Shown here one piece after another: positions 244 through 45,339 of a stretch of DNA of 64,000 nucleotides. The notes under the pieces were generated by a model. That model made no database searches. It was not told the DNA's origin and was given only the letters and a program-made list of their open reading frames with translations. The first letter of the stretch is position 1, and the number at the start of each line of letters is the position of its first letter. A program made the position numbers and the translations under genes. The stretch is from Isoetes taiwanensis (taxonomy: Eukaryota > Streptophyta > Lycopodiopsida > Isoetales > Isoetaceae). Location of the stretch: assembly GCA_021234155.1 (NCBI GenBank), contig JAJEKV010000036.1:3251070-3315069 (forward strand). The letters run 5' to 3'.

Positions 244-244
244 C

Positions 245-1765: not shown

Positions 1766-2045
1766 AACCCAATTAGCGTGGTTTAGGTGCTGGTCACGAG
1801 ATCCACTTGAGTTCCTTGCTGCAAGGGTCGATCATCAATACATGTTATTAAGTTAGATAATAGTCATTTGTGCTTACAATTGAATTGTTGTTAGGTACAA
1901 AAGAAATCACATGAAAATTTCATTTATAAGTCAAAATCATGGTAATACATTAATTCGCATATAGGGGTACACTTAATGAACTACATGATAATACTTAAGA
2001 AAGAGTTACAATGTACTTTAATTAACTTAACAAACAAATCTTCCA

Positions 2046-2990
2046 TCAATGATGTCGCTTGAAGAAGTTCTTGATTTTCTTGAATGTTGTGCCCTTGCCC
2101 ATGTTCTGCAGTATTCTGGCCGCCGATCCTCCCTCCAATGCTCTTGCCACCTGTGGTGCTGGGAGTTCTGGTGCCGTTGCTGCCACCACTGACAAGTGCG
2201 CATCCCTGAGGTGGCCCCTTGCGAAGTCGAGGGCATGAAGGGCTACGGATCTCTTGAAGAGTATAACATGGTCCATTCCGACATCTATCTTGGCATGCTG
2301 CCCAAACCCTGTAAGTGCTATAAGGAGCGCCACTGATTCCTCACCCCTTGGGCTGAACTCCTTGTGAAAGACTATCATCTGTCCCTGGCTAAGGGCCGGA
2401 AGATAGTACCTGAGTGATTTACCCCTGTGTGGCCCCGTGGCTCCCGTGCCTCTCCTGCGAGCTGCCTGGCCGAAGATATCTATTGCTGTAAGATCTTCGT
2501 GGTGCCTCCACATTGTTGCTGCGTTTTCCAGATTAATGCTGCTAGATGCTTCACGCACGCTCATGGAGCGGACTGGTCGGCTTGAACTTGGGCCTCTTCC
2601 CGGCTTGTACAACCTGCTTTGGATCTCCTGGAATTCCTCTTCTGGAATGTCGGGTTGCTGTTGTTGAAACATCTGCCTTATCTGCTGGTATGCCTGGATA
2701 TCCGACATAGTTTCCCCTGCATAGGAGTGTCGCTCGGCTACCTCCCTTGGGATCTCCTGGTAGGAGTAGTCGATGAAGTCGCTACCCTGTTCCTGTGCAA
2801 TTAGGCCTAGGAGCTCGTCCATCCTGAGGTTCTCCTCTTGGCAATAGGGAAGGTTAAGGATGCCTTGGCGAATATGTACTCCTTTGCCGTCGATGATCAC
2901 CGGGGTGAGGGGCGTGATACCTATTGGCTCGAGTCTCGGGTCTTTAGGACCTCCCTTCGCCCCCGAGCTAGACGCGCCTCTCCATCCTTC
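2046..2990 (-). CDS. Unrecognised ~285-315 aa protein, upstream of the gag segment
   Basis: This is an open minus-strand frame of about 314 codons from the previous stop. The first GTG lies at 2900 and no convincing ATG is seen, so the true start may lie in an upstream exon; an acidic frame with EEEEEE lies just upstream near 3030. The product is Gln-rich around QIRQMFQQQQPDIPEEEF, Ser/Arg-rich in the middle (PSSSRPVRSMSVREASSS), and ends with a very basic tail, KKIKNFFKRHH. No domain is recognised. Because it precedes a same-strand gag it could be an extra ORF of that retroelement, as Tat/Ogre elements have an ORF1 before gag. It could equally be a separate host gene. Confidence 0.4.
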   Translation of the reverse strand, partial: EGWRGASSSGAKGGPKDPRLEPIGITPLTPVIIDGKGVHIRQGILNLPYCQEENLRMDELLGLIAQEQGSDFIDYSYQEIPREVAERHSYAGETMSDIQAYQQIRQMFQQQQPDIPEEEFQEIQSRLYKPGRGPSSSRPVRSMSVREASSSINLENAATMWRHHEDLTAIDIFGQAARRRGTGATGPHRGKSLRYYLPALSQGQMIVFHKEFSPRGEESVALLIALTGFGQHAKIDVGMDHVILFKRSVALHALDFARGHLRDAHLSVVAATAPELPAPQVARALEGGSAARILQNMGKGTTFKKIKNFFKRHH

Positions 2991-5900
2991 TTGCCTCCCT
3001 TATCTCCCAACTTGGGTTCTCTTCCTCTTCCTCCTCGTAATCTGTTCAATCACAGCGTAGGTGTTTTACGATGTGGAGCCGTGGTATTAAGTACTCGCCG
3101 TCGATCTCGTGGATACCTATCTGGCGCCTTTCTCGAAAGTGTCGAGGGTGCTAAATCAAGGGTTGAATCGAATGGCTCGCTTTGGTTGGTTGGATGGCCC
3201 TTTTCTTTGCATGAACAAGGCTAAAGCTGCCTTGGTTTGAGGCGTACCTATGCCTATGGTGCTTACGGTCATAACCATCATCAATTAAATTGGGATTATG
3301 TCAACTCAAAATCACGCCAACCTGCTATTGTCTTCTAGGGGTTTTGTTTTTTTAATCTTTTTTTGGACTTCAAAAATAACATAAGGTTCGCGATTCACGT
3401 GTGACTTTTCATATCTCAATTGAAATATGCAAAAATGAAGAGCAAGTTGCTAACATAGATGAGACAAATATTGCTTGCTCAATAGATGATAATATTAGGT
3501 TTGATAATAACAAATTGCATTATTTGGCAGGCAATTCCGGACTTCGAAATTATCGATACATGGCACAAATATCATACAAAAATATCATATATTCCAATAA
3601 AACATTAAAAGGATCAATCCATGTTTTTCCACATATTTAACAAGGTGTGGTTCCATGTCGGCCGTTCTATCCAGGTTAAAGTGCGAATCTAACACTTCAC
3701 CCACCGTCATCCCCATAGCCAAATTATGCATAATAGACACAAACTTCACCCGGAAAATCATCTGTCCCAAAGTTTTTTGGATGTTCGTAAGATGGTGGAT
3801 TCGGGGCTGTGTTTGATTGTAGAAGCATTTGAGAGCATCATCATCCACTATGATTATATCATCCTTATTCTCGATACCAAGTTAAGGTCCATCATGTTAC
3901 TCAAGTGTTTGATGAAGATAGGCTTGTTGTTGGATCCTTGGGATTAGTGAACTTCACACATTTGTTCGATCCCAAAGGGTCAACCAATTTCTACGCATTT
4001 CCCCGGTGCCTCCAAAGTATCATTGATGTTCCTTAGTTCCATGGATGACCAAATACCAACTCGAAATAACCTGAATGCCTCTCGTCTAGCATCTCCTTCA
4101 AGTGCGGCCATGATAGATCCACTTGGTGTTTGATTCTACGGGTGTCGATGAAACCTGTTCTCTAGCCACTTTATTTTTGGAAAAGTCTTGCAAAGGACTC
4201 CGTTTAGGTCGAACACCACAACCTTCTTAGAAACGCAATGGAAGCTGAAACATCAAACATGTATCCGGTCAATAAGATACGATAACACAAACAATACAAG
4301 CGCCAAAGCGTGATTTGAAATAGTCATAACCAAATCGGCGTCGCTTGATTTAGTTTGACAACGAAAAATAATCAAAGACGCTTGGCGCGATTTAATTCAA
4401 AGGTAATACAAATTAAATCACGGCGTGGCTATTTATTTGGGCAAGGCCATACCTATCATCTTCGGTTTATTTGCCGTCATCGGCGTCATTCTCCCCTCAT
4501 ACACCCTTAATCTTAGTCTTCTTATTTGTTAGAATTGTTATTTTCTATTAGTTCCATTGCTCTTCCTTCTGGCCCGACATTATTTTACTATTGATTTGGC
4601 AAACGCATGAATCACTAGAGCCGCCGTTGCCTTCATTTTGGTTTCCACATCAATTATTTCATTGTTAACTGTGAATCTACTCTATTGTTGCTTGCATCAC
4701 CCGCAATGTGGGCAAGGATATTTCCCTAAGTTAAGCCGCCATCCGCGATTACTTTGAGCAACCAGGTTTAGCGGCTATTTGTTCATTCTTGCTTTCCTTA
4801 TCGGTACCGGTTACTAGTTCCCTCTCCGGAACAACGTCCACTTTCGAATTGGACAAGTCTCTGAGACTTTTTGATTCTTGATGATTTCAGGTTGCCATAA
4901 GGGCCTTTAGGAGACTTGGCAAGCACATGCATGAGGAATGGTTCAAGAAAGTCTTTGGCCTGCTCATCACTCACAAAGCGGTGACATCTTCTTGCACCCA
5001 TAAGAGCCTCTTGGGCAATATAACCTCCAACATGAAGCTCCAAGCGGGGTTGTATCAATTGGAGCAAATGCCTCGGCGAGGTAAGCGACCATAGGCGGGG
5101 AAATCCATTTTATTTAAGGGGCCCTTCTCCTTAGTTTGTAGCTTCGTGCTTGATTTCCCCACTTAGGAGGGGTCCCATCCTCATCCTCTTGACTCATCAC
5201 GATTACGGATCCCCGATCCGTATGAAAGAATATAGTTCTTAAGTCCGGATCATCTAGAAGAAAACATTCCCATGCACGCTATTGTCACCCTTGGCCTTAG
5301 CAATATCATATTCCTCGTCGGCGGACATGGATATCATAATAAAGATCACATGTGCCATCTTCCGATTACGTTAAATGACTCATTATCCTTAACATCATAT
5401 ATTAGGCATCCCTCCCTAATAACTTTTGAGGCACTCCGGATCATGGCGGCCGAGATAGTGCATGCAGATGTGACTCACGAAGGACAAGCGATGACAATAG
5501 TGAAGGACCTCGGTTTGTCAATCCTATCTGGTGGTAAAGAAGCTCTTGTAGTCCTTGGTTCATGCCCATATCTCCTCTCCCACCCTGGCTGTCCAACACA
5601 AAAGAGTGATATATTTTTAAGGCCGGAAGTTGAATCGGCAAGAGACCTTTGTACCCAATGGGTGAATCTTTGGCCGATTAATGTCGTCTTCTCCGGTAAT
5701 CTTCTTCACAAGGGCCACTTTTCTTCTCAACTCGGCCCGGTACCTTAGGGGTAGAGTCTCCTTATGTTTTGTATTTTTAGCCTTCCAATTCTTTAGGAAG
5801 TCCTTTGACCGAATACAAACTTCTTGATGTCATCATTCTTGACCTTGTATTTGTCCGGCAATCCAATTTCGGATAATGCCACATCCCAGATAGCCTTTGT

Positions 5901-6560
5901 AACTCAGCTCCTGGTGACTTCATTTATCGCGTTACATCCTTTACATGGTACGCGGCACTCAGCGAAGGACATCCTATCCTTGGTGAAAGCACCCTTCTTG
6001 TATAAGACTTCCTTCTTTAAGCGGGTCTAAAACCCAAATGGTCACCGTCGTCTAGCCCACGAGTCTTTCTCATCTCTGTCACATTCAAGTCAAAGATGCT
6101 TACATCAACGGGAGGCACCCTACCCATAGTATCGGCGGCTTCCCTTGTGCATAAAGCGTCCCGAATTCATTCCACTTGAGCCATCTTGCCTCCTTACAAA
6201 ACACAATCTTATCACGAGTGCGTGGTCGACCTGCCGGATGAGCTTTTCGAAGGATGCGCAATGTCATCACCACCTTTTTTCTTTGATTTTCTTGCGGTCT
6301 TCTTCTTCTCTGTATAATTGTTATGCGGCGACGAGTCCGCTCCGGCGGCTTGAATGCCTCGGACTTTGACCATACATGCGGTGGGCAATGGGCAACCATA
6401 TTCCACCCAATCGTTGGCGAGCGGCGCGGTTGTTCAACGTATGGACTGCAATAGATACGAACATTGAATCGATATCATAGAATAGAAACACGCGGCGGGC
6501 GATTTGAATAGAATTGATGAAGAGAAAAATCACGCTGGCGTGAAATGAATAAAGTTACTA
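2991..6560. other. Unassigned, mostly decayed sequence
   Basis: Only short frames occur: 87 aa on the minus strand at 3585-3848, 89 aa on the minus strand at 4798-5067 and 158 aa on the plus strand at 5272-5748. None has a recognisable domain. The minus strand around 5300-5470 gives conserved-looking pieces such as IREGCLIYDVKDNESFNVIG, broken by stops, so an old minus-strand gene or element may lie here. GCGCCAAAGCGTG and CACGGCGTGG motifs near 4300-4440 belong to the palindrome family described at 6566. Confidence 0.35.
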
Positions 6561-6565
6561 ATGCA

Positions 6566-6745
6566 ATTCCGCGCCCGGGCGTGCTTTCAAATCAAACCAA
6601 TTCCGCCCGGTGTTTTCAAATCAATCAATTCATGCGGTGTTTTCAAATCAATTGGTTGACTTGAAAACACGCTGGCGTGAATTCGATTGATTCAAAACAC
6701 GCTGGCGTGAATTGGTTTGATTTGAAAGCACGCTGGCGTGAATAC
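6566..6745. repeat. Foldback of 3+3 ~30-bp palindromic units
   Basis: Three units of about 30 bp (GC-rich core, then TTTCAAATCAA) are followed by three inverted units (TTGATTTGAAA, then CACGCTGGCGTG). The right arm has perfect CACGCTGGCGTG cores, nearly self-complementary. The left arm has degraded versions such as CGCCCGGTG. The centre is near 6650 (AAATCAATTGGTTGACTTGA). The block could form a cruciform or long RNA hairpin. Single cores recur at about 4.3, 6.5, 8.0, 10.0-10.3, 10.9 and 12.1 kb. Confidence 0.7.
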
Positions 6746-9230
6746 AATTTATGAAACCAGGTTGATTACCTTTTGTATAGAAATGTCTTCCCCATTTCAT
6801 TCAAAGTTGCACTAATCTCGACCAAATCTGCGGTGTGAAGTATTGGCATCCAAGATCTGACACCTCCTATAATGCATAGTGATTGTAGAACACTTTTGGC
6901 TTTGTTTGTTACTTTTTGCTGATGATGGCCTTTTGTGCCTCAGCGGAATGCTGCCCGTCGATGATGACATATTTAATATCATCACTTGATAATAGCTCTG
7001 GGCGTTCGTCCACCGCAAAGAACTTGTTCGAGATCATATCCCAAGGTAGCACATCCGGGGCATAGGCATTTGACTGGATTACTAATCATGCTCGAACAAT
7101 CTCCATGGCATGTCTTTGGATCATATCTCCTGCTAACATAAATGGAGCTTGGTGAACGGATGAGGGACTTCACATGGATCGCAAAAGTTTCCTTAAGACC
7201 CAATGGATAATGGTCGTGACGTACTTATTCAGCTTGTTCATGGCCTCTAGGCTGCGCCACTCTCATCTGTTCATTCTCAAAAAGCGAAGCCTCCATGCCT
7301 TCGACAAGCCGCCGGGTTGAACATTCTTCCCTAGATCTAGGACCCTTTTAGAAGCTTTCAAATTCGACTAATTCCCTAACTTGCGCAAATAGTGACTTGG
7401 TGTCGGTTTAGTGAACATGCCTCTACGCATACCGTAACCCCTTGGCAAATAGATATTGGCGTAAGCGCTACATTGGTTGGCCAACCATATTTAAAACATG
7501 TCTCACCATTCACATCTGTCTTCATGAGCGTATCCTTGTATCACGATAGCTCTGGTGAGTAAGTCGAGCAGATTTTTTCTTACGCTTACGTGTAATCTCC
7601 AAGAGCAATTTGCGGTTGGTGTCATCCTCTTCCTCACAAGAGATTAGGATCCCTTGTTTGGCCATCTTATGCGCTTCCTTTTTCCTCGAGAGAGAGTTAA
7701 GTCGAGCTTGCCATTTGTCTTGGCAAGGTCAGCGTATTCCCTCGGCACCCTAGATCCATTTCCTCTTGAGGCGGCGAGGGTCGATTGGTTGCTATAAGAA
7801 TCGGCCCTTCATCATCTAAGGTGAGATCATATGGTGCTTGCATCACGGTTCGTCACGCCCTTGCTTTCTTGGCGAGGATTAGAACCGAATTAGTAGGGTT
7901 TTCTTCCTCTTGAGCCTTTGCAAATGAAGATGAGCACTTTTAGAGTACTTTTGAGAACAAGAGATCACGCTTGGCGTGCATTTAAACCTAAATTAGTACA
8001 AATCACGCTTGGCGTGTTGGTATCTCCTATTATTGACCATGCTATGCGTTAATTTGAAACTAAATTATTTTGCATCCACATTTTAAGCTACATACCCTTC
8101 ATGAATCCATATTTCACACTATTTAACCTCATTGAACATTGCTATCTCCAAGCTGTCTAACACCGCTATATTCTATATATAAAAGCGAGCAAAATTATGT
8201 TCTCTGAGAATGGACAATCGAGCATTAACGATGTTAATACTTAAAATTCATGCAAAGCATAATAACTCAAACTCATGCAAAGCATATTAAGTGAAAGGAA
8301 ATATCTCAAATTCATGCAAGCATAATACTCTCCACCACGGTGTGTGATACGTGGCAAATTAAATACCTTGAATAGGGTTACGTGTATTACGTATTATTCG
8401 ATCAACGTCCTCTGAAACTTGAGAAGAGCGGGTTTAGAGATTCCTCTTCCACCGCTTCCTCTGCCCCGTCAGCCTCGACCTCGATTAAGCTTTAGAAGAC
8501 ATCTCGGGAATTAAGCCTAGTAGCAGTCGGAAGGTCATTTCGGATCTGGCGCTTCGGACTTTCGAAGAAATAGCTTTTTCTACATGCGAGAAATAGAAAT
8601 TTGAATTTCAAGAAAACACAAAATCTTGTTTGAAATATTCTTGACACATACAAATAATAATGGCGAAGACCCGTCCGTGACTTCTTTCATTAAGTTTTTA
8701 AAATCCAATCTACCCAAAAAGTTTATCCCCCGCCTAAGCGTGGTTAACCTAATCTTTCTTCTAATTCGAATTTTCCCGACCGCTAGAGTTTCCATAAGCG
8801 CCTTCAAATCTCAAATCAACTTCTCAAATCAACTTCTCAAGAATGGCTCTGAATTACGGTACTCATCTCATTCAATAGCTTGAACATTAATTTCCAATAG
8901 TAGGTGTCTGAATAGCAATTTTCTGCGATTAATCGAAGATGAATGTTTCATGTTAACTACAAATCGAGAAAAGGAAAGTAGGATTATGCAAGATCGACTC
9001 CATCGATCCGGTATGCTTGTCATGGAATTCCGCTTTCGGGGATAAGTATGTCCGGAATTCTGATGATTAATCTTCTTTGCGCTATGGATGAAGCTTTACC
9101 TCATGAGACACCCCGGTGGGGATACGGTTGGAGAAAGTGTTGGAACATTTGTTGCATGGCCAAGAAACCGCTTAAAAAGGTATGTAACATGTATTACATT
9201 GTAGAAATATAGAAGTAGACAAAATTTGTT
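6746..9230. other. Unassigned sequence with scattered CACGC palindromes
   Basis: No supportable gene is seen. Frames are at most 85 aa and overlap on both strands (for example 8580-8807 minus and 8626-8883 plus). Two TCACGCTTGGCGTG copies lie near 7966 and 8003. A minus-strand Glu-rich or Arg/Gly-rich snippet near 8440-8500 (EVEADGAEEAVEEES or RGRGSGGRG, depending on frame) resembles one near 10460 and may be a decayed exon. Confidence 0.3.
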
Positions 9231-9234
9231 GTAT

Positions 9235-9958
9235 TCATTGGAAAAAATTACAATTGTATATAATCTGGATAAACCGGATAAACCGGACAAAATCCCAGAC
9301 TCTTGTTTCAAGCCCAGTCTTCGAGTAGGCTGGGCTATCGATACTCCCATTTCCATTGCAGGGCATAGTGAATTCTTCTGGTAAAACCCCAGCAAAAACA
9401 CCAGGCTCTAGCTCCACCACCCCCGCCTGCTCCACCTCCACCTCCTGCTCCTCCTCCTGCTCCACCTCCTGCTCCATTGGTTGAACCTCCAATGCATCGT
9501 ATAGCGCCTGCGGTAGTGGTTCCATTGGTTGAGCCATCTCCATTGCATCGTATACCGCCTGTGGTAGTGGTTCGTGTTGGGGCATCCGGGCATAGAGGCT
9601 AACCACTAAGCCTTGACTCCTCATTTTGAATCTCGAGCTGACGGATGCGAGATTCACTCTCGATCAATGCATGTACTGCATTCTCGAAGTGATTAGATAA
9701 GAGGGCGAGCCTCCGTGCGATTGCAAGGGCCCCAGAGCCCAGATCTATCATTGCCCTGCGCTCTGCTGCCATCATCATTACTTGATCCAAGTACTCCAGG
9801 GGTTGCAAGACTGGTGCTCCAGCCGAACTGGTGCTCGGCTGCGGTTCAACCGGACTGGAGATTGGAGCCGAAACTGGAGCTGGGCTGTGTGATTGCTGGC
9901 CCAAATGTAATTCCAATCCATCTTCGTCACCAACCGGGTGATTAATGTAACCTGGCAT
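9235..9958 (-). CDS. Unrecognised acidic repeat protein with one frameshift
   Basis: The first frame starts at ATG 9958 (MPGYINHPVGDEDG) and runs 119 aa: a Ser/Pro-rich segment, then a helical stretch (AIARRLALLSNHFENAVHALI), and a stop at 9599. The overlapping frame below 9657 continues with two copies of a PLPQA.YDAMEM.QPME unit and a Glu/Val run (EVEQEEEQEVEVEQ). The repeats and biased composition suggest one protein of about 235 aa with a single-base frameshift near 9600-9650. A TATA-like TTTATAAATAAAG and a CACGCCCAGCGTG palindrome lie upstream, near 9990-10025. No known family is recognised. Confidence 0.4.
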
Positions 9959-9984
9959 CTATCAATAGGAAGTGGCGAATATCG

Positions 9985-10305
9985 GTATTCACGCTGGGCG
10001 TGTTATATTTCTTTATTTATAAACTTAGAAACTAAGAACTTATGGCGTGTTTAGCATAAAAGTTGAAAGTAGGGATACAATTGTTTGCACGCTCAGCGTG
10101 TAAACTGCTATATAGGAAAAACTATACACGCTCGGCGTGCATTCAGTAGCCAGCGTGTAAATAATTGCCTGGCCTTTATCTATTTACTTATCTATCCAAT
10201 ACAGGTTTTTTTTCCCCTCCTGGCTGAATGCACGCCGAAATGCGTGTATTCATGTTGAAAACTAAGGTTACCCTAAAACAAGCTTAGCGTGTTTCAAATA
10301 TTATC
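9985..10305. repeat. Cluster of CACGC...GCGTG palindromes
   Basis: At least five short palindromes occur in about 320 bp: CACGCTGGGCGTG, CACGCTCAGCGTG, CACGCTCGGCGTGCATTC, GCCAGCGTG and CACGCCGAAATGCGTG. They lie upstream of the ORF that starts at 9958. They belong to the same word family as the foldback at 6566. They could be protein-binding sites or remnants of a foldback element. Confidence 0.5.
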
Positions 10306-10399
10306 TTTCAGATTTTTCTAATGCTTTCTACTACACTTATTCATAATAGAAACTTGCATGCAATAGCATGATTAATTCGGATGAGAAACTCAAGAATTT

Positions 10400-10860
10400 T
10401 CGAAACAAAAAAGCGGATGAAGTTTATAAAAACTATTCTGGTTTTCATAAACATCATCTGCTTCCTCTGCCTCGAGCAAATGCAAAAGCTGCCATTGAGA
10501 TGCAACTTAAAACTAAATGAAAACTAACCTTGAGTTATGAGGCTGGAAGGATTCGAAGAACGGAGGACTATGCTTGTGGTTTTAATTCGAGGCTTTTCGA
10601 TTCGCGAGACCTTAGTCCTCTGCTTTTGGTTTTAATTCGAAGTCTCCGATTTCCTCACTACTGGATGCTTTCTGAGAACAAAAGGCGAGTCTTTTAGTAA
10701 GTTAGGAATTGCCGAAACCAAACATCTAACATTGATGAATATAAATCGCTCACCAAGATTTCCGGATGGCGGATCAAAACACAACAGAAGGCAACCGCAA
10801 ATCGTATGAAGGAAGGAAGAAAATGTAGGAACTTTGAGGCGTAAAATGGATTTATATAGG
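10400..10860 (-). pseudogene. Decayed small gene with TATA box, promoter paralogous to the 11.5-12.0 kb gene
   Basis: A minus-strand CCTATATAAA box lies at 10851-10860. The 85 bp around and upstream of it closely match the promoter of the gene starting at 12026. Downstream, a GGTGAGCG donor-like site (near 10750) and a TTTTGTTCTCAG acceptor-like site (near 10680) suggest a short intron, followed by ASSSEEIGDFELKPKAED. No initiator ATG survives at the expected place (CGCCATCC instead of CGCCATGA). I infer a degenerate sister of the acidic gene next door. Confidence 0.35.
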
Positions 10861-10920
10861 CACAATTAGAAAAAGTTAAGCGTGAATAATTGATTGCTTG
10901 AATTAACACGCCTGGCGTCT
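10836..10920 (-). promoter_or_regulatory. TATA promoter, copy 1 of a duplicated promoter
   Basis: This stretch shares with 12067-12148 the order GAGGCG, TTTATATAGG (a TATA box read on the minus strand), TTAAGCGTGAATAATT, ATTGC and AACACGCC(T/C)GGC. The conserved AAGCGTGAATAATT block and the CACGCC core sit 20-60 bp upstream of the TATA box in both copies. Confidence 0.55.
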
Positions 10921-11531
10921 GGTCTTCCCCATGACATGACATGTATATGGTATATATGGAGAATATTGCATTTCATGCAATAAATTCTCCATGACATTTT
11001 ATTCCATTTATTGCATTGAAAAAAATAGAATTTAGAAATTTTATATAGGCTACATTAAAAATGATTTTAAAGGCAAAATTATGAAGGCTAAAAATGACTT
11101 GTAAGGTTGGGGAATTGTTTTTAGGTCGTATAGGAAAATTTCCTATGGTTACTGTGATGCGAATCAGAGATTTCTCATGTGGTTGATTTATAGTGTTCCC
11201 GAGACTTTGTTGAGACAAAATTTGCAGATACAAAATTCTAGAGAGACAAAATTTTAGAGAAAACAGCTTGGAGCCAAAATAATTGGAGAATACAGTTTGA
11301 TTTTATCCAAAAAATTTATGTACGAAAAAAGCGGTTTGAAGAAAAACTGTTTGAAGACAAAGTTTATGAAGAAAAACTGTTTGATTTCATTAAAAACAGT
11401 TGTATGTACGGATGCCCGGCTTAGGCAGTTGCCCTAGAAGGCTTTTCACACAATTCTGAGAAAAAAAATGCGGGGCGTGTCCAAAACTTCTGTAAGAATG
11501 GAAACAAAAAATGGGCCGCCCGGGATCTGCA

Positions 11532-12026
11532 TCACTCTTCTTCCACGCCTGCAACAAAGAAGAAAGAAAGGTGTTAGAAAAGAAAGAAAGGTGCAAAAAC
11601 AAAAAACAAAAAGAAATCACATGCAAACCTGGTTCATCTCTTAACCACTCCAAAAACTGGTCGAATTGTCGACCTTCTTCCGAATCCTCCTCCTCCTCCT
11701 CCTCCTCCTCCTCCTCCTCCTTTCATTTCTTGTTTTTCTCGTGGGGGTCAAGCCAACCCTGAAGCAGAGCGGTTTCATGCTCTTGGGAGGACATCTCCTC
11801 CTCTTTCTCCAACTCCTCCTCTTCCTCCTCTTCCTCCTCTTCAGAATCAGAGGAGCTCAACTCCTCCTCTTCCATAACGAAATCAGAATCATCCTCTGAA
11901 TCGGAATCAGAGGAGAATTGGGAAAGAAAATCAATGAGGGGGGATTGAGGGTTCTTCAACCCGACGTCTCTTTGAGGAGACCTCGGGTTCTTCATGAAGG
12001 TCGAGCGCTGAGGCTGAACGCTTCAT
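11532..12026 (-). CDS. Acidic nuclear-type protein (two exons, ~137 aa), damaged
   Basis: ATG 12026 follows a TATA box (CCTATATAAA, 12081-12090) by about 55 nt. The N-terminus, MKRSASALDLHEEPEVSSKR, carries a basic nuclear-localisation-like SSKRRRV. The frame breaks in a run of six C near 11940. Removing one C joins it to an Asp/Ser/Glu-rich body (SSDSDSEDDSD, EEEEEEEEEE). One in-frame TGA (11723-11725) precedes another Glu run and EGRQFDQFLEWLRDEP. An 80-nt intron at 11549-11628 has GT donor and TTGTTGCAG acceptor, and exon 2 adds VEEE and a stop. The intron phase fits the one-base correction. Acidic low-complexity nuclear proteins are often histone-binding or scaffold proteins, but no family is recognised. 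Confidence 0.5.
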
Positions 12027-12066
12027 GGCGGGCAGAAAAAAAAATTGGGACCAGAATGGAGGTCTT

Positions 12067-12148
12067 GAGGCGTGAACCGGTTTATATAGGGTTAATTAGC
12101 TCTTAAGCGTGAATAATTTATTGCCTCAAATAACACGCCCGGCATTTG
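12067..12148 (-). promoter_or_regulatory. TATA promoter, copy 2 of a duplicated promoter
   Basis: The minus-strand TATA box CCTATATAAA lies at 12081-12090. The conserved block TTAAGCGTGAATAATT and the AACACGCCCGGC core lie upstream. It matches 10836-10920 and drives the acidic gene starting at 12026. Confidence 0.55.
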
Positions 12149-12728
12149 CAATTCCATTGACTATATTATCTAGTCTAGGGTATATTATTATGGATAATAA
12201 ATTCTCCGCCTATTAGTTATATGTCTTTTTTAATCATATATCCAATTTTTCGATAATTAAAATTTGGATATATTTATATAAATGTCATTTCCTTGTTGTT
12301 GCCATGAAAATTCTTGTTTTAAATGATTTCGTTCGCCCATTGTTATTATTATATTAAACCTATTTCCAAGGAATTTCTTGCTTTTAAAAAAATTTGATTT
12401 ACCTCTACATATTCCATAAATGTAATTACTTTTTTTATCTTATGGTGTAATAATTTTTTTCTTACTCATTGACTAAAAAAGGGTGCAATTTGCCTAGGTC
12501 AATGGTGCCCCTCAACTCAAGATGGTGAAAACAACAATATCAATGAAAAACCAACTCCTAGCAAGAATGTTGAAGAAAAACAATTAGTCCTCTATAGTAG
12601 GGTGCAATGGAGGAACAAGAAGGTGAGAATCATGCACAAGTGCAACAAGGAAATAGTAGGCCAAGGAGTCATTGTGCTAGCGGATCCCAGTCAAGCCATT
12701 AATGATGAAAGGCTAGGGGAAGACAATA
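12149..12728. other. AT-rich spacer
   Basis: The stretch from 12170 to 12470 is AT-rich with no frames and no obvious sites. From about 12480 the base composition changes and the decayed 5' part of the DUF7869-like relic may begin (for example DGAPQLKMVK-type frames near 12500-12700, all broken). Confidence 0.3.
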
Positions 12729-15330
12729 TTGGTATTGCAATTTCGATGTTGGAAGACAACCTGGAAAGGTAAAGGTTTGGGTGACAAGGAATGTTTTGGT
12801 TGTGTCAAGCAATTGGAGGTTCCTTGCATCATGGCATGGCCTATAAGTAGTGTTCAATTTGTGGAGGATTATATTTTTCCGAGCTTTGAGGTTGTTGGGG
12901 ACAATGATTGTCTTGATATTGATCCATTGGCGCTTGGAACTCTAAACCTAGGCAAAAGGGGAGAAGTATCGGTTACCGGACATTATCCTAGCAAAAGAGC
13001 CAAGTTGATTAGTGACACCAAACGTGAGACAATGGTGAAGGTTAGGGGCCTCAGTTGTTGTTGGAGTGATTGTATGCAATTCTTCACAATAGAACAATTG
13101 GTGGAAGCAAGAGCCACTTTTCAAGAGTACACTGTTGATGAGAGGACCTACATGTACACAATCTTCGAGCATGCACTTCAAGGTGAAAGAAACCCAAACA
13201 AAAAAAAAATACCCTTTGCTAGGCAAATGGATATGTGCAAAAGCATGGCAGAAAATCCATGCAATTCCAACTTCTTCATGGCATAATTGGCAAAAAAAAA
13301 ACAGGCAGAGGGGAACAGGATTGCTTTACATGGAAATAATGGTTTGTTGAGACCAACAAATAGGACCCCAGCTGCCGGGAGATATTTTGAAAAATATATT
13401 GATTTCAATGCAGAGTCTATGCCACACAAAAGCAGAAGGGATGAAAAGGGAAGAGCAGTTGTTGAGAAAAGGTTGCCATCACATTGTACTCAAAAGAGTA
13501 TTTTGGAAGAAGTGAATTCCCTACTTCGAGAATTGGGAATTCTTCCAATATCCCAACCTAGCTTTAGTAGGTTATGGAAGAAGCATTTCAATCATGTCAC
13601 CATAGCAACTTCAAACAACTTTGCAAAGTGCAATTTATGTGCTAAGTTGAAGGAGACTCTTGATAAGACTCAGGCAACCTAGTCAAAGGGCTAGGATAAG
13701 GGAGCATATGAAGGACCATATGACTGACCAACTATCATGTAGATCATGTTATTGGATGTGGAGGACTTTATCTGCATTGGAACCCAATAACTATTTATGT
13801 ATTATACATGACAAGATGGACCAGCAAAAGACTTGTCTTCCACAATTCAAGTACATACCAAAGTCATGTGGAAGATCATACCCTTTACAGGGGCAATCTT
13901 GCATGGGCAGAATCAAACCTACTATGGCCATTTTAGTTTGGAGTTGTGGAGTGATGGTCCAGATTTTCATATTGGGAGTATCATGAGGTGTTTGAGAAAC
14001 TATGAAAATGGATACAATGGTCACCTCCGTGACCTTACAAACTAGCCGTGCACTACATAGAGCATTGTTAGATGGAAACCCTAACAATATTGAAAAGTTC
14101 AAAGAAGGCAAGGTTTAGGAAGCATGGGTCTAATGAACATGTTGGAGCTTCAACTTCACGTGCTAAACCTCAAGATCTACCCAAAAGGTTTCTCTTGCAA
14201 CTTGATAATTGTGCCGGGCCAAAATAAGAACAATGGATGTTTTCTTTCCTATCCTACTTAATGTACTGTGGGGATATTTGAAAGAGTTAATTTAGGGTTT
14301 CTTATGCCCGGCATACCCATGAGGATGTGGATGCATTATTTGGCAAATATAGTTGTATAATTTGGCAAAGAACAAGGACCAACTTTCCTAGGCTAATGGA
14401 AATCTTGCATGAATGCACTACTCCAAACCCTATAGCTTCTCTCATAGAAGAAGTGCCCGATTGGAAGAGCTTTGTGGATGGTTATACATTGGATCTTGAA
14501 GGTCATTCCAGGCCTCTGCAGTTCACTTTTGGGTGAGAGATGGGATTCCAATCTTCCAATGGAAGATGAGACCTTCAGAGGATGAGTGGAGAGGAGGGGA
14601 GGAAATATGGCGTAGAGATGAGAATGGCAAGCCTATGATACCTCTAGGTCAACCAAAAGCTTTAAAACCCATCAAGAAGTGTGAAGCAATTGGGATTGAC
14701 TAAGGAAGGAATCCAAGACTATATAAAGCATTGGCAAACCAATCCAGATGACACCAACCGCCTTGGTGGCTTCATGGAAGAAGGTGATTAACCCGTTGGG
14801 GGGAGATAGACACATCCTCGGATGAATTGAAAGAAGGGTGGTTGCCTAAGACTAGGTGGAAGACCTTAGGGTGCCGAGGATTTTGATGACACTGTAAGTA
14901 GCATTCAAGTAGCAATATGCTCCTCCTCCTTCCTCGACAAACACTATGTTGGTCCTAAGAACAATAGGCCAAAGTTTCTAGGCATGGATGCTTATGAACC
15001 TTCCAATCGACTTGGAATGCCACCAATTTGTGGTAGTAAAGCCATCAGATTTAGATACATATCCAAAGGTGGTTGGGGTTCACTATCTCTCGATATTTGC
15101 AAAGAAGAAGGTAATATTAACTTCAACCATGTGCGGGTGGAATGGTGGTGTCCAAAGTGCATCGGGTTGACCAACGTGTTCGGATAAAGAAAGGTACTCG
15201 ATTGTTGGACAAAGAGATGGAGGAGAAATCCAAAGTGATCCTGATCTTTGGCTAGACTATGAAAGTGTTTTGTACTCATGGACTCCAAACACTATTCCAA
15301 AGAAGAAATGCGAGAATTACAATACCCTCG
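12729..15330 (+). pseudogene. DUF7869-like (RNase H-fold transposase-like) gene relic
   Basis: Plus-strand frames follow each other with many shifts: 12729-13286, 13287-13682, 13660-14045, 14140-14230, 14312-14536 and 14984-15187. Family-like motifs appear in order: KCNLCAKLKETLDKT (a possible zinc site), YLCIIHDKMDQQKT, WSDGPDFHIGS, KRFLLQLDNCAG, HTHEDVDALFGKYS and PDWKSFVDGYTLDLEGHS. From memory, this order matches DUF7869-type proteins that are multicopy in mosses, ferns, algae and some animals and are probably transposon-derived. The Asp of LQLDNCAG and of HTHEDVDALF would be the acidic catalytic positions (inference). The gene is broken and likely inactive, unless many indels are sequence errors. 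Confidence 0.6.
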
Positions 15331-15565
15331 TGATGTCAGGAAGAAGGCTATGATATCATTGGGGGTGCTTGAAGAAAGTTGAATAACTATGTAAATTTTT
15401 GTTATCACGTTTTTATGATATGGTGCTATATTGTGAAATATTGACTATTTTGTAAATAACATGATATTACGTTTTCATAATTTTGAGGTGAAATGTGTGA
15501 ATTTGAATATGCTACTAAAAACATGCAATATGAAATTTGTCCCAAAATTAAGACATAAACCCAAT

Positions 15566-15883
15566 TTAATTGAATGATGGTTTCATGTAGTCTGGCATGT
15601 TTCTGGTTCTATCCCACAGCCTACTCTTGCCCCTGGATCCCCCACCTACGGCTTGGGCAAGAGTGTCTAAGGAAACCCATTTCCCTCCCCTAGGTGGCAA
15701 GCTAACCTCCCCGGGTAGAATGTGCTGATCATATTGACAGATGATGTCAGTGTAGTAAGGAGTTCTGGTTAAGGTGGCATGAAGATCAAAGAGATGATCA
15801 AAGACATGAAAGGCTTGCTCAGCAGGAAAATCACGGATGTGATTGGAGTCATTATACCATCTAACAAAGCTTGATGGTGCCAT
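15566..15883 (-). CDS. Unrecognised 105-aa protein with TATA promoter
   Basis: This is an uninterrupted minus-strand ORF from ATG 15883 (MAPSSFVRWYNDSNHIRDFP) to a stop at 15566. It has mixed, protein-like composition (AFHVFDHLFDLHATLTRTPYY, ILPGEVSLPPRGGKWVSLDTL), no membrane segment and no low complexity. A TATA box CTATAAAAAGGG lies 109 nt upstream. Its VSLDTLA and FDLHATL pieces faintly echo the SLDPWL small genes at 52.5 and 53.5 kb, but that is too weak to claim homology. It lies downstream of, and on the same strand as, the H3-like gene. Confidence 0.5.
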   Translation of the reverse strand: MAPSSFVRWYNDSNHIRDFPAEQAFHVFDHLFDLHATLTRTPYYTDIICQYDQHILPGEVSLPPRGGKWVSLDTLAQAVGGGSRGKSRLWDRTRNMPDYMKPSFN

Positions 15884-15991
15884 TGAGCAGAGATGGCTAT
15901 GAAAAATAGCTGATGGGGATAAGCAAAGAGCTAGAAAATCGCCAAAGGGGCTGAGAGCGCTTTTGGTGGGGAGAAAATGACAAATGAGGGC

Positions 15992-16004
15992 CCTTTTTAT
16001 AGAC
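15992..16004 (-). promoter_or_regulatory. TATA box of the 105-aa ORF
   Basis: GTCTATAAAAAGG on the minus strand, 109 nt before ATG 15883. Spacing and context fit a plant core promoter. Confidence 0.5.
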
Positions 16005-16160
16005 TAAGGTGCCTCGGGTTCCGTGCACAAAGGTTCTTGATAGGGCAGACTTCGAATCTATGGCCATGGTTGTCCAAATGAGCTATCATGAAGTGCGATT
16101 CTAAACAAAACAAAGCAAGAAACACTACATGGCAGTTTGTTGTGTCAAAATTGGTCAATC

Positions 16161-16457
16161 TGGGCAAAATTAGGTGAAATCGGGTGGCATTGCGCAGAAT
16201 GGCTCTGCGTCGCGGGCGCAGGTGGGTTTTGCGCGACGCGACCCGATTTCGGGTTATTTCCCCTTTTGTGAAGAGTTTTAGGGAGTTAAAAGATCCTAAC
16301 ATGACTCTTAGCATGATTCTAACTTGATTAGCAACTTTTGTTACTTAATTTGGACATGGATTAGCTATAGAATGGCGAAATCGGGTGGCGTTGCGCAAAC
16401 TGGCCCTGCGTCACGGGCGCAGATGGGTTTTGCGCGACGCGACCCGGTTTCGTCAAT
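16161..16457. repeat. Two direct copies of a ~95-bp palindromic unit
   Basis: Copies at about 16161-16255 and 16363-16457 share GAAATCGGGTGGC, TTGCGCA, CTGCGTC, GGGCGCAG, TGGGTTTTGCGCGACGCGAC and CCGRTTTCG. Within each copy GAAATCGGGT pairs with ACCCGATTTC, and TGCGTCGCG pairs with CGCGACGCG, giving a nested hairpin. They lie between the H3-like gene's 3' end and the 105-aa ORF's promoter. Confidence 0.65.
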
Positions 16458-16665
16458 TTTTGCAATTTTTTTTTGACTAATTAAGTTAGGATTTTTAACT
16501 AACCAATTTTTCTTTCATCATCCCCATTTTAATGGTCAAAACTAAACTAAAATTTGAGCTACTTAAACACATTTTCATGCAAGAATTAAAATCAGTTTAC
16601 AACAACAAAATTTTGTATCTATATAGAAAAGTTAATAAGTACATTAATTCAACAAAATTGCATCT

Positions 16666-17761
16666 TCAAGGGTATTCCTTGCGGATGCGACGCGCCAAGT
16701 GTATATCCTTGGGCATCAGGGTCACCGTCTTCGCATGGATTGCGCAGAGGTTTCCCTCTTCGAACAACTGGGTGAGCTCGGCCTCAGCAGCTACCTGCAA
16801 CACCCGAGTTGTGAGCGACGTCACCCTATAGTCGGTGACGAATTCCTGCATCACCTCCCGCATGAGCCGCTCAAACGGTGCCTTCCTAATCAGGAGATTA
16901 GTGCACTGTTGAAAGTGCCTAATCTCCCGAAAAACTCGGGCGTGCGGGGAGTTAGGCCCATGGTGGACCTTCTTCGGCTTCTCGGGTTGTGGCGGCGGCG
17001 GCTTGGGCTGCTTCTTTGGTGGCCGGCCCCCCTCCACGGTGCGTTGGACGTTTTGCCGGCAGTACCAATCATTATACCTCGTCCACTGACGGAGGTATTG
17101 TTGGTACGCCTTGAGGCGGCGTTGGTAGAGGCGGTCCTCCTTCAAGGCGAAGGCTCGCTCGCCCGCCTTCTGCTTCTTAACCACCTTAGGTGGTTCGGGC
17201 CACACTGGGTAAGGTGGTCTTGGGTCCGCGCCCTCCTCCTGCTCTTCTTCCTCCTCTTCGTCTTCATCCACCTGCTCTTCCTCCCGCCGGGGAGGCTCCT
17301 CGATCACGACGGTCCGGCGAGGGCCGTCGTTTCTTCTCTTTGTCCTTCGCTCCTGCTGCCGCAGCTCCCGCTCCCGTTCCCTCTTCTTCCTCGCGGCCCT
17401 CTCTTCTGGCCACTCCGCAACCTTCTCTTTGCCCTTCTTCTTTGGCGCCGAAGGCCCCGCTTCCTCTACCTGCTGCTGGACCTGCTCTTCCACCTCTTCT
17501 TCTACCTCGGTGTCTGAGGGCCCGAAATGGCGAGACTCGCCGGTTCTCTGAGTACCTGCCGACGGGGAACTGCTGCTGGGGCTCTCCTCGGCATCGTGAT
17601 AGGTATCGTCGCTGCTGCTGCTGCTGGGGGGAGGCTCCTCTTCCCCCTTCTTGGGTCGAAGGTGCTCCGGGACCTTCTTCGTGTGGCGTCCCGCTGCTAC
17701 CTGCGCCATCGAGAGGGTGGGTCGCTCGCTACCTCCTAGCTGTTTGCTTGGTTCTTGCCAT
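16666..17761 (-). CDS. Histone H3-fold protein with ~250-residue N-terminal tail
   Basis: The ORF from ATG 17709 to the stop at 16666 encodes 347 aa in one exon. Residues 257-347 are a histone H3 fold: [19 protein letters not shown] (alpha-N/alpha-1), [34 protein letters not shown] (alpha-2, with the H3 Cys) and [15 protein letters not shown] (alpha-3). Loop 1 has canonical length, unlike typical CENH3, while the HFQ..TNLLI..APF pattern resembles CENH3. H3 K56 and K79 positions are Gln and Val. The tail (1-250) is Ser-, Glu- and Pro-rich, with an acidic run at 147-159 and an aromatic helical module at 184-225. Upstream, ATG 17761 encodes [10 protein letters not shown] then TAG, a canonical H3 N-terminus in another frame; removing one base near 17735 would join the two. 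A TATA-like box is at 17847. Confidence 0.85.
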
Positions 17762-17846
17762 ACTTGATGGTGGGAAAAACAGATGACGTAAGGCTGACCA
17801 AGAGAGATACGGTGGAGGAAAGTTTGGAGGAAAAATGAGGTGTCAG

Positions 17847-17860
17847 GGATATTTAAAGAG
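17847..17860 (-). promoter_or_regulatory. TATA-like box of the H3-like gene
   Basis: CTCTTTAAATATCC on the minus strand, 86 nt before ATG 17761 and 138 nt before ATG 17709. A TTACGTCATC (CRE/bZIP-like ACGTCA) lies between it and the start, near 17783. Confidence 0.4.
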
Positions 17861-17869
17861 GAGGGTCCC

Positions 17870-18317
17870 TAAGAATATTCCCCTACCATAAATAGGCCTA
17901 CTTATTAGCCCCCCTTATTGATTACTCTATAGTACCTTTATTATTAATGTATATTTTAAACCTATATTAATTTGTATTATACTTTAAATTTTCGAATTTT
18001 TCTAATGTTTGAGGTGCTAATTATGGATTTGCGCCATTTTTCACCTGGGTCTCCGATTGGTATGATTCTTCGACCCATTTTAGGTGAAATTTGATGCAGA
18101 TGCATAATTTTCACTCCAATTTTACTAGAAGATGAATTTGACTTACTCTTTCCTTCGTCTAACACTTAACCTAATTCCTGACCCACTACCCAGGAGAAAA
18201 AATTTTCCCCTATTTTCGCGGTTCAATGGTGGAAATGTTTATTTCACACCCCTATAGGCCTGTTAGACTACTTTCATGGTTATGGTCAGTGCTAGTTCTT
18301 GGTCAACCAAGAACATC
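17870..18317. other. AT-rich spacer between H3-like promoter and primer-binding site
   Basis: No gene is seen. The minus-strand 62-aa frame at 17977-18165 has Ser/Lys-rich low complexity and no support. If the LTR at 18331 belongs to an element extending left, this is its untranslated leader. Confidence 0.35.
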
Positions 18318-18330
18318 GCTCTGATACCAT
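18318..18330 (-). other. Primer-binding site, initiator tRNA-Met
   Basis: Minus-strand ATGGTATCAGAGC directly abuts the LTR end. TGGTATCAGAGC is the standard complement of the plant initiator tRNA-Met 3' end used by many plant LTR elements. It shows that this LTR is a 5' LTR with its internal region to the left. Confidence 0.85.
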
Positions 18331-19973
18331 TGTGACGCTCCCTGCTAAACATACGGCGCCCAGCCGTACACTCGGCAGGAAATCCCCCGTCCGGCTCAAC
18401 AACCGCACGGGCCCTTCGTCTACCCCGTGCTCCGAGGTGACCCCTAGTGCGGGGAGGGAACACGAAGGTGTCTTGCGCGCCCTTCCCCTATGGGCTCCTA
18501 TAACAGCGGAAGCGATAACACGTCAGAACTAGCATCAAACATATCAATACTACCTCGAAGGGTAGTGCATCCCACATATATCAATACAAAGATGATAAAC
18601 ACAAACCATAAAACATGAGAGCTCCTACCCGTGCTCGGACTCATAAGGAGGATGACCCGGCCGGGCCGGGTCTCAAGGTAGAGCGCATCGAAGTCATGGC
18701 AATGGCGGGGGCGGCATAGAACAATGGCTAGGGTTGACCACTCCATCCGCCCCTCCTGTGCATACTTTGCAGATGGGCTAAATCAGGCTCTGGCATGACT
18801 CTAGCCTTCCGGAGACGCAATCCCATGGTATCACCCATCAGGACTACTCCAGGTTGCATCTCCCTCAAGTCCCGATGAGGCGGAAGGGTTGCATCTCCCC
18901 TTCCCGGGCTCTAGAGGTTCCGTGGCGGCTAGAGAATCGTGGCGACACACACGATTGTACCGACTTAACCCCCAAAACGAGAGCCAAGCCAACACTTGCA
19001 GCTCTCTCGAGGCGGCGACACCATTGCCCCGAGGTGTCGGGACCCATGCTCGCCCCCACCTGCGACCCGACCATAAGCCTAGCCCACTATGGGATCCCCA
19101 AAGCCCCCACTCGGCGGGGATCCTCCCTCCACATTCCCTCTAGCCCCCGTTATGTGGTGCCGAGTCATATCATAGCCTCGATAGCCCGGTGGGCTCCTAT
19201 GCACAAAGGGCGCAACTAATAGGAACTAAGGGATCTACTCTAGGGCATACTACATATGGCTCTAGGTCTCTACCCCCCTTCCCAATACAAGAGGAGCAAC
19301 ATGATCAACCATCATCACATAATCATCACATCATGAGAATAATCATAAGAAGAACATCTTAACCTAATCATACAAATCTAACTAATTGGTTAGGGTTCAT
19401 TGATTAGGGTTCAAGATGTTGAATCTGAGTTCTAGGATGGCTCTACTCAAGATACAAGATACTAGCATATCGGAATGCTAATTCCGGATAAGCTATCACA
19501 ACTACTACCCTACATACCTGCTCCCCGGCTCTCCCCTCCGATCCGCGGCGCCTCCATGGTCTTCGACTCACGTGATGCTGCTCTTGCTCCAAGAACGAGT
19601 CTACCCTGCTGGGGCTGCTGCACCAATCTATGCCACAGCAAACGATGTTCGAAACGGAGTTTCGAACGAGTAGGTGAGTCTCTGGGTGCTAGGGCTGGAA
19701 AGAGGCCTAGGGTTAGGGTTTAGGCCTATATAAGTTAGGTCCACCTAGGATGCCACGTGGCACCAATCGGGTGAGGCCTGTGTGGCGGGTGCCCAATAGG
19801 TTAAGGCCACGTGGATAATGGTCTTACCCTATGGTTGGCTAAGTTATGAGAATAACTTGGCCATGCCCCCTAGTGCCACAATCTATGGTATACAAGGCTA
19901 TAAGGATAGACTTGTATAGTGGCGGATCCAGGAATATACGTATTTATGGCGTATATTCCCCTGGACCGTCACA
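18331..19973 (-). mobile_element. 5' LTR (1643 bp) of a minus-strand LTR retrotransposon
   Basis: The ends are TGTGACGCTC...GGACCGTCACA, inverted terminal TGTGACG/CGTCACA as expected for an LTR. The primer-binding site is adjacent at the left. A minus-strand TATA box is at 19725-19736, within a gene-like GC-rich segment. No second LTR copy is seen in the window. The internal region should extend left. The only same-strand gag and protease lie at 1-1765, more than 16 kb away. Either one very long element with nested material is present, or a truncated element lies beside another one. Confidence 0.7.
19725..19736 (-). promoter_or_regulatory. LTR TATA box
   Basis: AACTTATATAGG on the minus strand inside the LTR, followed by CCTAAACCCTAACCC, a telomere-repeat-like (telo-box) stretch sometimes found near plant transcription starts. 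Confidence 0.5.
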
Positions 19974-20330
19974 TGCGGGCTCCAATATGCCAAGATGGCT
20001 AAAACATGCCAAGGTGGCTCAAACATGCCATGTGGCCCCCAACATGCCACCTCGGCTCCAACATGCCAAAGTGTCTCAAACATGCCACGTGGCTTCAACA
20101 TGCTAAGATGGCTCAAACATGCCACTTAGGCTCCAACATGCCAAGGTGGCTCAAACATGACATGTGGGCTCCACCATGCCACCTAGGCTACAACATGCCA
20201 AGGTGGCTCAAACATGCCATGCGGGATCCAACATGCTATCTAGGGGCTCAAATATGTCACGTGGACTCCAACATGCCACATCGGTCTAACATGCCAATGT
20301 GGCTTGCCACCTAGGCTACAAAATGCCATC
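19974..20330 (+). repeat. Degenerate minisatellite, unit ~25-50 bp
   Basis: About 15 variants of AACATGCCA(A/C)(G/C)(A/G)TGGC TC are strung in tandem, alternating GGCTCAAACATGCCA and GGCTCCAACATGCCACCTAGG. The ORFs across it (86 and 102 aa) are artefacts of the repeat. Confidence 0.7.
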
Positions 20331-20463
20331 TCGAATGATCCCAAACAATCTTGCTACTGCAAAAGGCGCCCTTGAATTCTAATTGCCACAACGAGAGGAG
20401 AATAGATCCAAACCCCTGTTCACCAGTTCCTATTGCTTCGTCTCTTCAGCTGCAACTTCTTGA
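20331..20463 (+). repeat. Dispersed repeat, copy 1
   Basis: From GAATGATCCCA through TACTGCAAAAGGCGC, TCTAATTGCCACA, GAGGAGAATAGATCCAAACC and TTCCTATTGCT to GCAACTTCTTG. The copy at 34097-34235 has the same order in the same orientation, with about 75-80% similarity by eye. The two copies flank the CACTA-like element. Confidence 0.65.
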
Positions 20464-20511
20464 CCACGTCCCAAGTGCAAATGGCCAAAACTCGATCTCC
20501 ATAACATAAAC

Positions 20512-21040
20512 CACAAAAGAGAATGGACATTTAGCGACGTGGGCTTGCGACGTCTGTGCGACGTGACGTCGCAAATAACGTCACCATCACGGCGATCAAT
20601 GCGGCGTCCGTTGCGCGGACTGCGTCGCATCACGGCGTGTGTGTATGCGCCGTCGACACCGTGGCGTGGCGGTCTGTCATGCTGGTGGGCGCTTGCGCCC
20701 GGTGGGCGCAGTGTCACTTGCCAGTGGGCCGCTTGCGGCGTCGGCGTCGCATCGACGATACGGTGCCAGCCCATCATCTCGCCCGGTGGGCTTGGGCGCC
20801 CCAGTGGACGGCAGTGTCACGCCCGGTGGAGTGTTCTGACGTGGCCGCATGCGGCGTCGTATATGTGACGTATGCTTGGCGATGCGGTCGTATATGACAC
20901 GTCGATGCGTATATATGACGTATGTGACATATATGACACGTCGATGCGGTATATGTGACGTATATGACACGCCGGTATGTATATGTGACGTATATGACCG
21001 TCGATGCGTATATGTGACGTGGGTGGTCGCGTGTGACGAT
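20512..21040. repeat. Left terminal and subterminal repeat array of the CACTA-like element
   Basis: The terminal repeat is followed by GCGACG/CGTCGC words to about 20860. A minisatellite then runs to 21040 with units like TATATGACACGTCGATGCG and TATATGTGACG. A second terminal-like GAGAATGGTCATTTAGCGGC lies at 21588, which suggests an internal duplication or nested relative. Confidence 0.7.
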
Positions 21041-22650
21041 ATTTTTATATACGAAGGTTAATGGTTTTTAGGATTACAAATTCAATAGCCGCCTGATTGA
21101 TACCTGTAAAAAGACTCGGCGACCAACCCAAGCTTCATTTAAAGCGTGTTGCCTGCGCATGCATCATCACGATGATATGCTACCGCTATAAATTGTTCAT
21201 TATAAAATCACGTTGTTACATGTCAAAATCTAGTTGTTCCAAGTTTACAATCCTTGAAGGTAACTTGACAATAGGCTTGTTGTCAATCATTGTTCTTGTG
21301 AGAAGAACATGATAAAGCCTTAAAATTTGTGCAAGAACACAAGAAAAAATCACACTTTTTACCTTTTGTCCGCGGGAAGCATTATAGTGTTTAATATGAC
21401 TTGCGTACCGCTTGTCCCGGACGCCCTAATGGCGGATTCTAGGTTTAGGTCGATGGCGAATTACAAACATAGCGTTAATTTCAAAACATCCCCTGCAAAA
21501 GGGATTTATTGATTATTGGTGATTGATCTCGTCCACATCAATGCGCTTCATCGGTCTTTTCGAAGTAATCTTATCTCTAGATGTGAAAGAGAATGGTCAT
21601 TTAGCGGCGTGGGTTTGCGACGCCCGAATTACCTCCTTCATCTAGACTCTTCGAAACCGAATCGGAAAAATGGTTTTTTTGGGGCTTTGAGAGCTTGCAA
21701 GAGCTTGAAAAATATTGTCCAGGAACTATATCAAGAAACCAAAGAAGCACATATGGATACGCCAATACAGGGGAAGAAGGTTATGATCTAAAATCTCATC
21801 TTTGGGTATACAAGTAATTCTAATGGCACTATGGAAGTTGAAAGATCAACATCAAGGTTGGAATCCCCAAGACAATGCTTGAACTTGCAACTTTACCGCC
21901 AAATGTCCGGATGATTTTGTGATATATGATGGTGGAGGAATTTATGCTTTCAATTGCACAAGTTCCATATGAAGCCGACCCCATTGATGAGGATTTTGAA
22001 AAAGCCGGAGATACTATGTGGCTACACCTGTTGATGGCCTTGTTTTAGATCCATACATGGAAAGTGGAATTGGAACATAGCTCGCCGCTATGCCGCGAAG
22101 AGTATCTAAACTGCCAAATTGTTACCTTTGAAGTCTTCAAAGCGAGCATGTCATGGTGCAAAGGAAAATGGGCTTCACACGGGCTTAGGGGATCACAAGG
22201 CGGTTGAGCTTGCCGACATCGCCTGGGTTCTTCCACACCCAATACCAAAAAACAAACCTCTCTTTCCGCTCCTACATGCCAAAATTAGATCCTTTGGTGC
22301 GGTTTTTTAACGCCATGCTCAGTTGTTTTAAGCTTCATGACTCATGAACTTGTTCCTTTAGTTTGAGCGCCAAGATTTTTATGGGTTCTTCGCCCGCGCA
22401 TCGATTGTATGATCCAAGCAAATCCAACATCTGACAAAAAAAAATCATGCTTTTTAAAAATCTCTTTAACCTTAATCTTTTTAATTTCTTCATTATGGCC
22501 ATTCTCGAGGTTGTGGAGGCTTGCCTTCTTTGGACAAGTTTGTTCATCGAAAATCAAAGAGAATTGTGGAGTTGGTTGAACCCAAATATTTTAATTGGTC
22601 ATCTAGCAAAATGCTTTGGGAAGAAAATAAGTGTATTCTCTCTCTAACAT
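21041..22650. other. Decayed interior of the CACTA-like element
   Basis: No supportable gene is seen. Plus-strand frames at 21516-21791 (91 aa) and broken pieces to 22310 have protein-like fragments (QELYQETKEAHMDTPIQGKK, HGLRGSQGG) but no recognised domain. The internal terminal-repeat relic is at 21588. Confidence 0.3.

Positions 22651-43992: not shown

Positions 43993-43994
<2 letters not shown>

Positions 43995-44030
<36 letters not shown>
43995..44030 (+). repeat. Poly(T) run
   Basis: About 40 consecutive T in the retroelement interior between the integrase end and the 3' LTR. On the element's sense strand this is poly(A), which could mark an internal insertion of a polyadenylated sequence. 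Confidence 0.6.
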
Positions 44031-44034
<4 letters not shown>

Positions 44035-45332: not shown

Positions 45333-45339
45333 TACGTAT

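Follow-up and report, generated by a model that had tools for sequence, protein, structure and literature searches.

A histone H3-like open reading frame with a foreign N-terminal part beside a single LTR in Isoetes taiwanensis

Introduction

Histone H3 is among the most conserved of proteins, and its tail bears the marks by which transposons are silenced. The locus described here raises the question of what an H3 fold represents when it is preceded by some 220 foreign residues and lies downstream of an LTR. It was found in a window of 64,000 nucleotides, i.e. the whole stretch of DNA analysed (Isoetes taiwanensis assembly GCA_021234155.1, contig JAJEKV010000036.1, positions 3,251,070 to 3,315,069, forward strand), and had been singled out in an earlier note made from the sequence alone.

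Histone H3 variants and mobile copies are known from other organisms, here as described in the available text of the sources. The H3-like (HTR) genes of plants are heterogeneous as a class, their N-termini being degenerate and K4, K9 and K27 changed (PMC4357034). The hAT transposons of Dothideomycete fungi have captured and amplified histone H3, and P. fijiensis holds 784 H3-like copies, of which most are truncated and only the original has escaped inactivation by RIP (PMC6710886). The retroelement Retrosat2 has an extra ORF0 upstream of its gag-pol ORF (PMC3485330).

Results

The ORF is a relative of histone H3

A 347-codon ORF with an ATG start was identified on the minus strand (Table 1). 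The Pfam profile Histone (PF00125) matched residues 231–343 with an E-value of 3.9e-29 (101.8 bits, cut-off 26.4), and the top PDB sequence matches obtained by phmmer were canonical H3 chains (108 bits, residues 222–345). The H3 homology claimed in the earlier note, for which an HMM search had been proposed as a check, was accordingly found to be significant. The upper boundary given there, 17761, had to be corrected: the ORF does not start at this position, where the ATG of another frame, 10 codons long, is found instead.

Residues 261–347 correspond to H3 R49–135 with 55/87 identities to plant H3.1. All 87 positions from alpha-N to alpha-3, complete to residue 135, aligned gap-free by sequence, and the C-terminal end of the ORF coincides with the end of H3. 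Two single-sequence AlphaFold2 models (mean pLDDT 46.4 and 53.6) were too poor for judging the fold. The profile and alignment matches mark the ORF as genuinely related to histone H3.

Table 1. Features of the histone-like locus and its upstream LTR, in window coordinates.
Feature	Position	Strand	Basis or remark
ORF (insert and H3 fold)	16666..17709	-	ORF calling, Pfam and PDB sequence matches
H3 fold, ORF residues 261–347 = H3 49–135	16669..16929	-	alignment to plant H3.1
H3-tail-like stretch, ORF residues 223–234 = H3 R8–Q19	17008..17043	-	phmmer alignment; weak alone
Foreign part, ORF residues 1–222: acidic, basic, strongly acidic and proline-rich stretches with aromatic segment	17044..17709	-	
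Aromatic/basic segment, ORF residues 184–221	17047..17160	-	one helix in low-confidence single-sequence AlphaFold2 model
Canonical H3 N-terminus, in a frame other than that of the ORF	17729..17761	-	six-frame motif scan
TATA-like TTTAAATA	17850..17857	-	96 bases upstream of MARTKQ ATG; putative function
Primer-binding-site motif TGGTATCAGAGC, one base after LTR	18318..18329	-	12 bases
Single LTR, 1643 bp	18331..19973	-	motif-called ends, terminal inverted repeats

Stop-free runs of at least 347 codons occurred in 0/500 mononucleotide shuffles of 16666–17761 (mean 122, maximum 273). The reverse strand over the ORF region is likewise open for 289 codons, and because G+C-rich DNA tends to stay open on both strands, openness alone is no argument. 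When the canonical H3 fold was left to decay neutrally to the observed identity in 5000 simulated copies, 18.8% were stop-free, and missing stops alone are thus no proof of constraint; with 0.1 indels assumed per substitution, 0.04% had neither stop nor indel. Of the 35 fold columns that do not vary among five further H3/CENH3 sequences, 27 were kept, and of the 52 that do vary, 28 agreed with H3.1 (Fisher p 0.04), a marginal test that depends on those five sequences. The decay simulation and the column conservation together suggest that the fold probably diverged under some past selection. Among listed positions, 6/7 DNA-contact, 7/9 H3–H3′ bundle and 19/25 core positions were unchanged. K64, K115, T118 and K122 were kept and R116 was replaced by T, and the positions of K56 and K79, read before as other than Lys, are indeed Q and V.

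A long N-terminal part foreign to H3

The long non-H3 region described in the earlier note was recovered as about 220 foreign residues ahead of the fold. Residues 1–220 gave best E-values of 0.74 against PDB and 0.091 against Pfam, neither significant. The net charge was −10 over residues 31–100, +8 over residues 101–135 and −14 over residues 136–160, after which the sequence is proline-rich (161–183) and then aromatic and basic (184–221). A helix was drawn for this last segment, in agreement with the aromatic helical module suggested before, although the confidence of the single-sequence model was low. Two candidate H3-tail matches within the foreign part were rejected, i.e. one across residues 1–220 (equalled in 1352/2000 shuffles, not significant) and a second at residues 1–60, with KKVPEHLRP picked by eye (equalled in 1624/2000).

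A canonical H3 start out of frame

The 10-codon frame at 17761, absent from the earlier note and new here, lies 52 bp upstream of the ORF ATG on the same strand. It encodes MARTKQTAR in another frame and ends with a stop 19 bases before the ORF ATG. The match to the canonical H3 start was 9/9, the runner-up in six frames of the window being 5/9 at three positions. Out of frame as it is, the canonical tail start is not part of the unspliced ORF protein.

H3-tail-like sequence resumes at residue 223, where phmmer aligned residues 223–234 to H3 R8–Q19 (RKSTGGKAPRKQ), in the correct order ahead of the fold; alone, this stretch is weak, as 51/2000 shuffles scored as high. The K9 position is Thr in this alignment, and no counterpart of K27 was seen. 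At the putative split point after R8, the G+C content per 30 bases shifts from 0.33–0.50 to 0.57–0.70. These features are consistent with an H3 gene into whose tail, directly behind R8, about 690 bp (17734–17044) of foreign coding sequence, charged and rich in proline, have been inserted.

With the H3 start in another frame, the beginning of this copy may already have suffered damage. That MARTKQTAR has stayed exact points to a recent frame break or else to continued translation of these codons through splicing. The context is better at the MARTKQ ATG, with A in position −3 and G in position +4, than at the ORF ATG, with T at −3. At least eight ATGs precede the ORF ATG from 18330 down, the scan being started below the LTR; in a transcript begun at the TATA-like box, the only preceding ATG would be that of MARTKQ. 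Translation of the ORF from the ATG at 17709 is a real problem, given the upstream ATGs and the MARTKQ context.

LTR, primer-binding-site motif and surrounding sequence

The LTR upstream of the ORF, on the same strand, reads TGTGACGGTCC...GGAGCGTCACA and has terminal inverted repeats matching at 10/11 positions; its ends were called by motif, because the window has no partner LTR. The motif that follows the LTR occurs once in the window, and we take it to be the usual plant primer-binding site of the tRNA-Met type. The MARTKQ ATG lies 557 bases and the ORF ATG 609 bases past it. With LTR and primer site just upstream on the same strand, the ORF takes an ORF0-like position. A search of 1–18330 for a 3′ LTR found none, down to word size 7 (the strongest match of the LTR had E 0.31); a partner may have been lost or may lie beyond the window. 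The element is therefore incomplete or much longer than usual, which leaves the cargo status of the ORF as plausible only. A tandem repeat of 19/57-bp units (19978–20304) adjoins the outer LTR end.

Downstream of the histone ORF, a GC-rich repeat at 16164–16463 consists of two direct copies 90% identical, with mutual inverted repeats at 72%. A 105-aa ORF follows (15566–15883, minus strand), with a TATAAAAAGGG stretch seen by eye about 0.1 kb before its ATG and no Pfam match at E 0.05. A broken transposase-like gene lies at about 12.5–15.4 kb (12473–15383, plus strand), of which 14291–14533 matches Pfam DUF7869 (E 4.5e-13). As for a DNA transposon carrying the H3, 24 inverted-repeat pairs were listed within 9000–22000, and none was seen to bound the DUF7869 relic together with the ORF.

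At the edge of the window, the region 1–1175 holds a Ty3-type gag with zinc knuckle (522–1109, minus strand, Ty3_capsid E 4e-8) and an aspartic protease piece (1–240, minus strand, RVP_2 E 9.9e-5), the whole running off the window. The gag remnant is preceded by a 284-aa ORF (2046–2900, minus strand) without a convincing Pfam match. A second LTR element occupies 40900–51805, with 2.3-kb LTRs (40900–43228 and 49493–51805) that are 95.6% identical and enclose broken retroelement-like ORFs on the minus strand, as judged by eye. Rfam at gathering threshold and ARAGORN returned no matches and no tRNAs, respectively.

A viral source was rejected: in single queries of the ORF and of canonical H3 against viral contigs, no relative was obtained, and a query with the H3/CENH3 alignment returned one contig at 35% identity. 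This contig has a 356-aa ORF at 379–1449 containing the H3-like part, and an adjoining 90-aa ORF that is H4-like by eye; the two are perhaps fused histones of a giant virus. The first 16 LTR bases matched three viral contigs, and nothing else was shared with the window at E 1e-5.

Discussion

The reading preferred here is that the ORF is a chimeric H3-like gene, derived from the canonical H3 lineage, which an LTR retrotransposon carries as cargo in its leader region; we assign this reading a probability of roughly 0.4. The suggestion of a mobile-element chromatin protein in the earlier note gains from the LTR and primer site 0.6 kb upstream, and loses from the missing 3′ LTR and from the lack of an element protein that can be tied to the ORF: the gag and protease remnants in 1–1175 cannot be connected with the LTR at 18331–19973, and the DUF7869 transposase-like relic at about 12.5–15.4 kb, on the downstream side, is on the other strand.

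Nearly as probable is that the ORF belongs to a host H3-like gene that stands alone under a promoter of its own, or to such a gene only recently turned pseudogene; the truncated LTR element would then end about 0.5 kb upstream by chance, and the frame break at the start would mark a recent loss of function. The TATA-like TTTAAATA at 17857 followed by a native H3 start, the missing 3′ LTR in 1–18330 and the presence of several unrelated transposon remnants in the region all suit this explanation, as does the heterogeneity of plant H3-like genes, whose N-termini are described as degenerate (PMC4357034). It would have to treat the shared strand and the leader position after the primer-site motif as coincidence, and the ORF is open across 347 codons. 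The ORF resembles those HTR variants in its H3 fold, its degenerate N-terminal part, its K4, K9 and K27 substitutions and its departure from the H3.1/H3.3 signatures; it differs from them, as far as the available text of that source goes, in the roughly 220 foreign residues before the fold and in its place beside an LTR and primer site. An unlikely variant is a spliced gene in which MARTKQTAR(AG/GT) is exon 1, joined in frame to the ORF, so that the protein starts with the tip of the H3 tail. AG/GTAGCG directly after the H3 start would provide the donor, in-frame phase-2 acceptors exist (the best being a CAG run 109–115 nt downstream), and splicing would account for the nine codons staying exact. 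Yet the intron would be 67% G+C with a single T in the last 14 bases, a base composition poor for a plant intron. Only three in-frame acceptors have at least 9 pyrimidines in 14, and intron models for the ORF were rejected, the in-frame acceptors being GC-rich and T-poor.

That the ORF is a divergent centromeric H3, as the earlier note had considered, is very improbable. Like CENH3 it joins an H3 fold to a long tail, unalignable here and fast-evolving in CENH3, and it has a few CENH3-like residues, RHFQ..TNLLI and VTLM occurring as in Arabidopsis CENH3. The likeness of HFQ..TNLLI pointed out before is real as a local one, but over the whole match H3.1 scores higher: BLASTP against the ORF gave 112 bits for Arabidopsis H3.1 and H3.3, 111 for human H3.3 and 102 for yeast H3, against 83.6 for rice CENH3, 82.0 for human CENP-A and 70.1 for Arabidopsis CENH3, which places the ORF 28 and 42 bits nearer to H3.1 than to the rice and Arabidopsis CENH3, respectively. 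Loop 1 has the same length as in H3.1 in the alignment, i.e. it is not lengthened, just as had been noted, and the adjoining start is the canonical MARTKQTAR, not MARTKH. A tree of eight sequences agrees in placing the ORF outside the pair of rice and Arabidopsis CENH3 (96/96), although it is weak: three of its five inner forks stay open, and human CENP-A likewise sorts with H3. The identity as CENH3 is disfavoured on scores and loop length.

If the ORF is retrotransposon cargo, the fungal hAT elements offer a parallel, an H3 that a mobile element has taken along and multiplied (PMC6710886). In contrast to those DNA transposons, as they are described in the available text, the putative carrier here is an LTR element, one copy was seen, the insert is long and the frame is open. 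Like Retrosat2 (PMC3485330), the putative element would be a plant LTR element with an additional ORF at the leader end, ahead of gag-pol. The ORF0 of Retrosat2, though, is not described as a histone in the available text, and for the element here neither gag-pol nor a 3′ LTR was found. Among the literature matches listed, judged by titles and abstract starts and with subscription papers largely outside their scope, none was a plant retrotransposon-borne H3.

In mechanistic terms, we propose that an LTR retrotransposon now harbours the split H3 in its leader, most probably as cargo at an ORF0-type place. Were it translated from the ATG at 17709, the fold would most likely pair with H4 and enter nucleosomes, and the long charged tail would replace the modifiable H3 tail. 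The resulting nucleosomes would be without methylation sites at K9 and apparently K27, would have Q at position 56 and might, speculatively, blunt the silencing of the retrotransposon. In its strongest form, the proposal is a long shot: members of a plant LTR retrotransposon family would make an H3 of their own, in which a charged tail stands in for K9 and apparently K27, and would assemble on their own DNA nucleosomes that cannot take the silencing marks at H3K9 or H3K27.

If an H3 split at K9 does reside in a retrotransposon leader, the use of histones by mobile elements against silencing would become directly testable. Even as a host gene or a recent pseudogene, the ORF would show how much remodelling the tail of H3 can undergo with the fold preserved.
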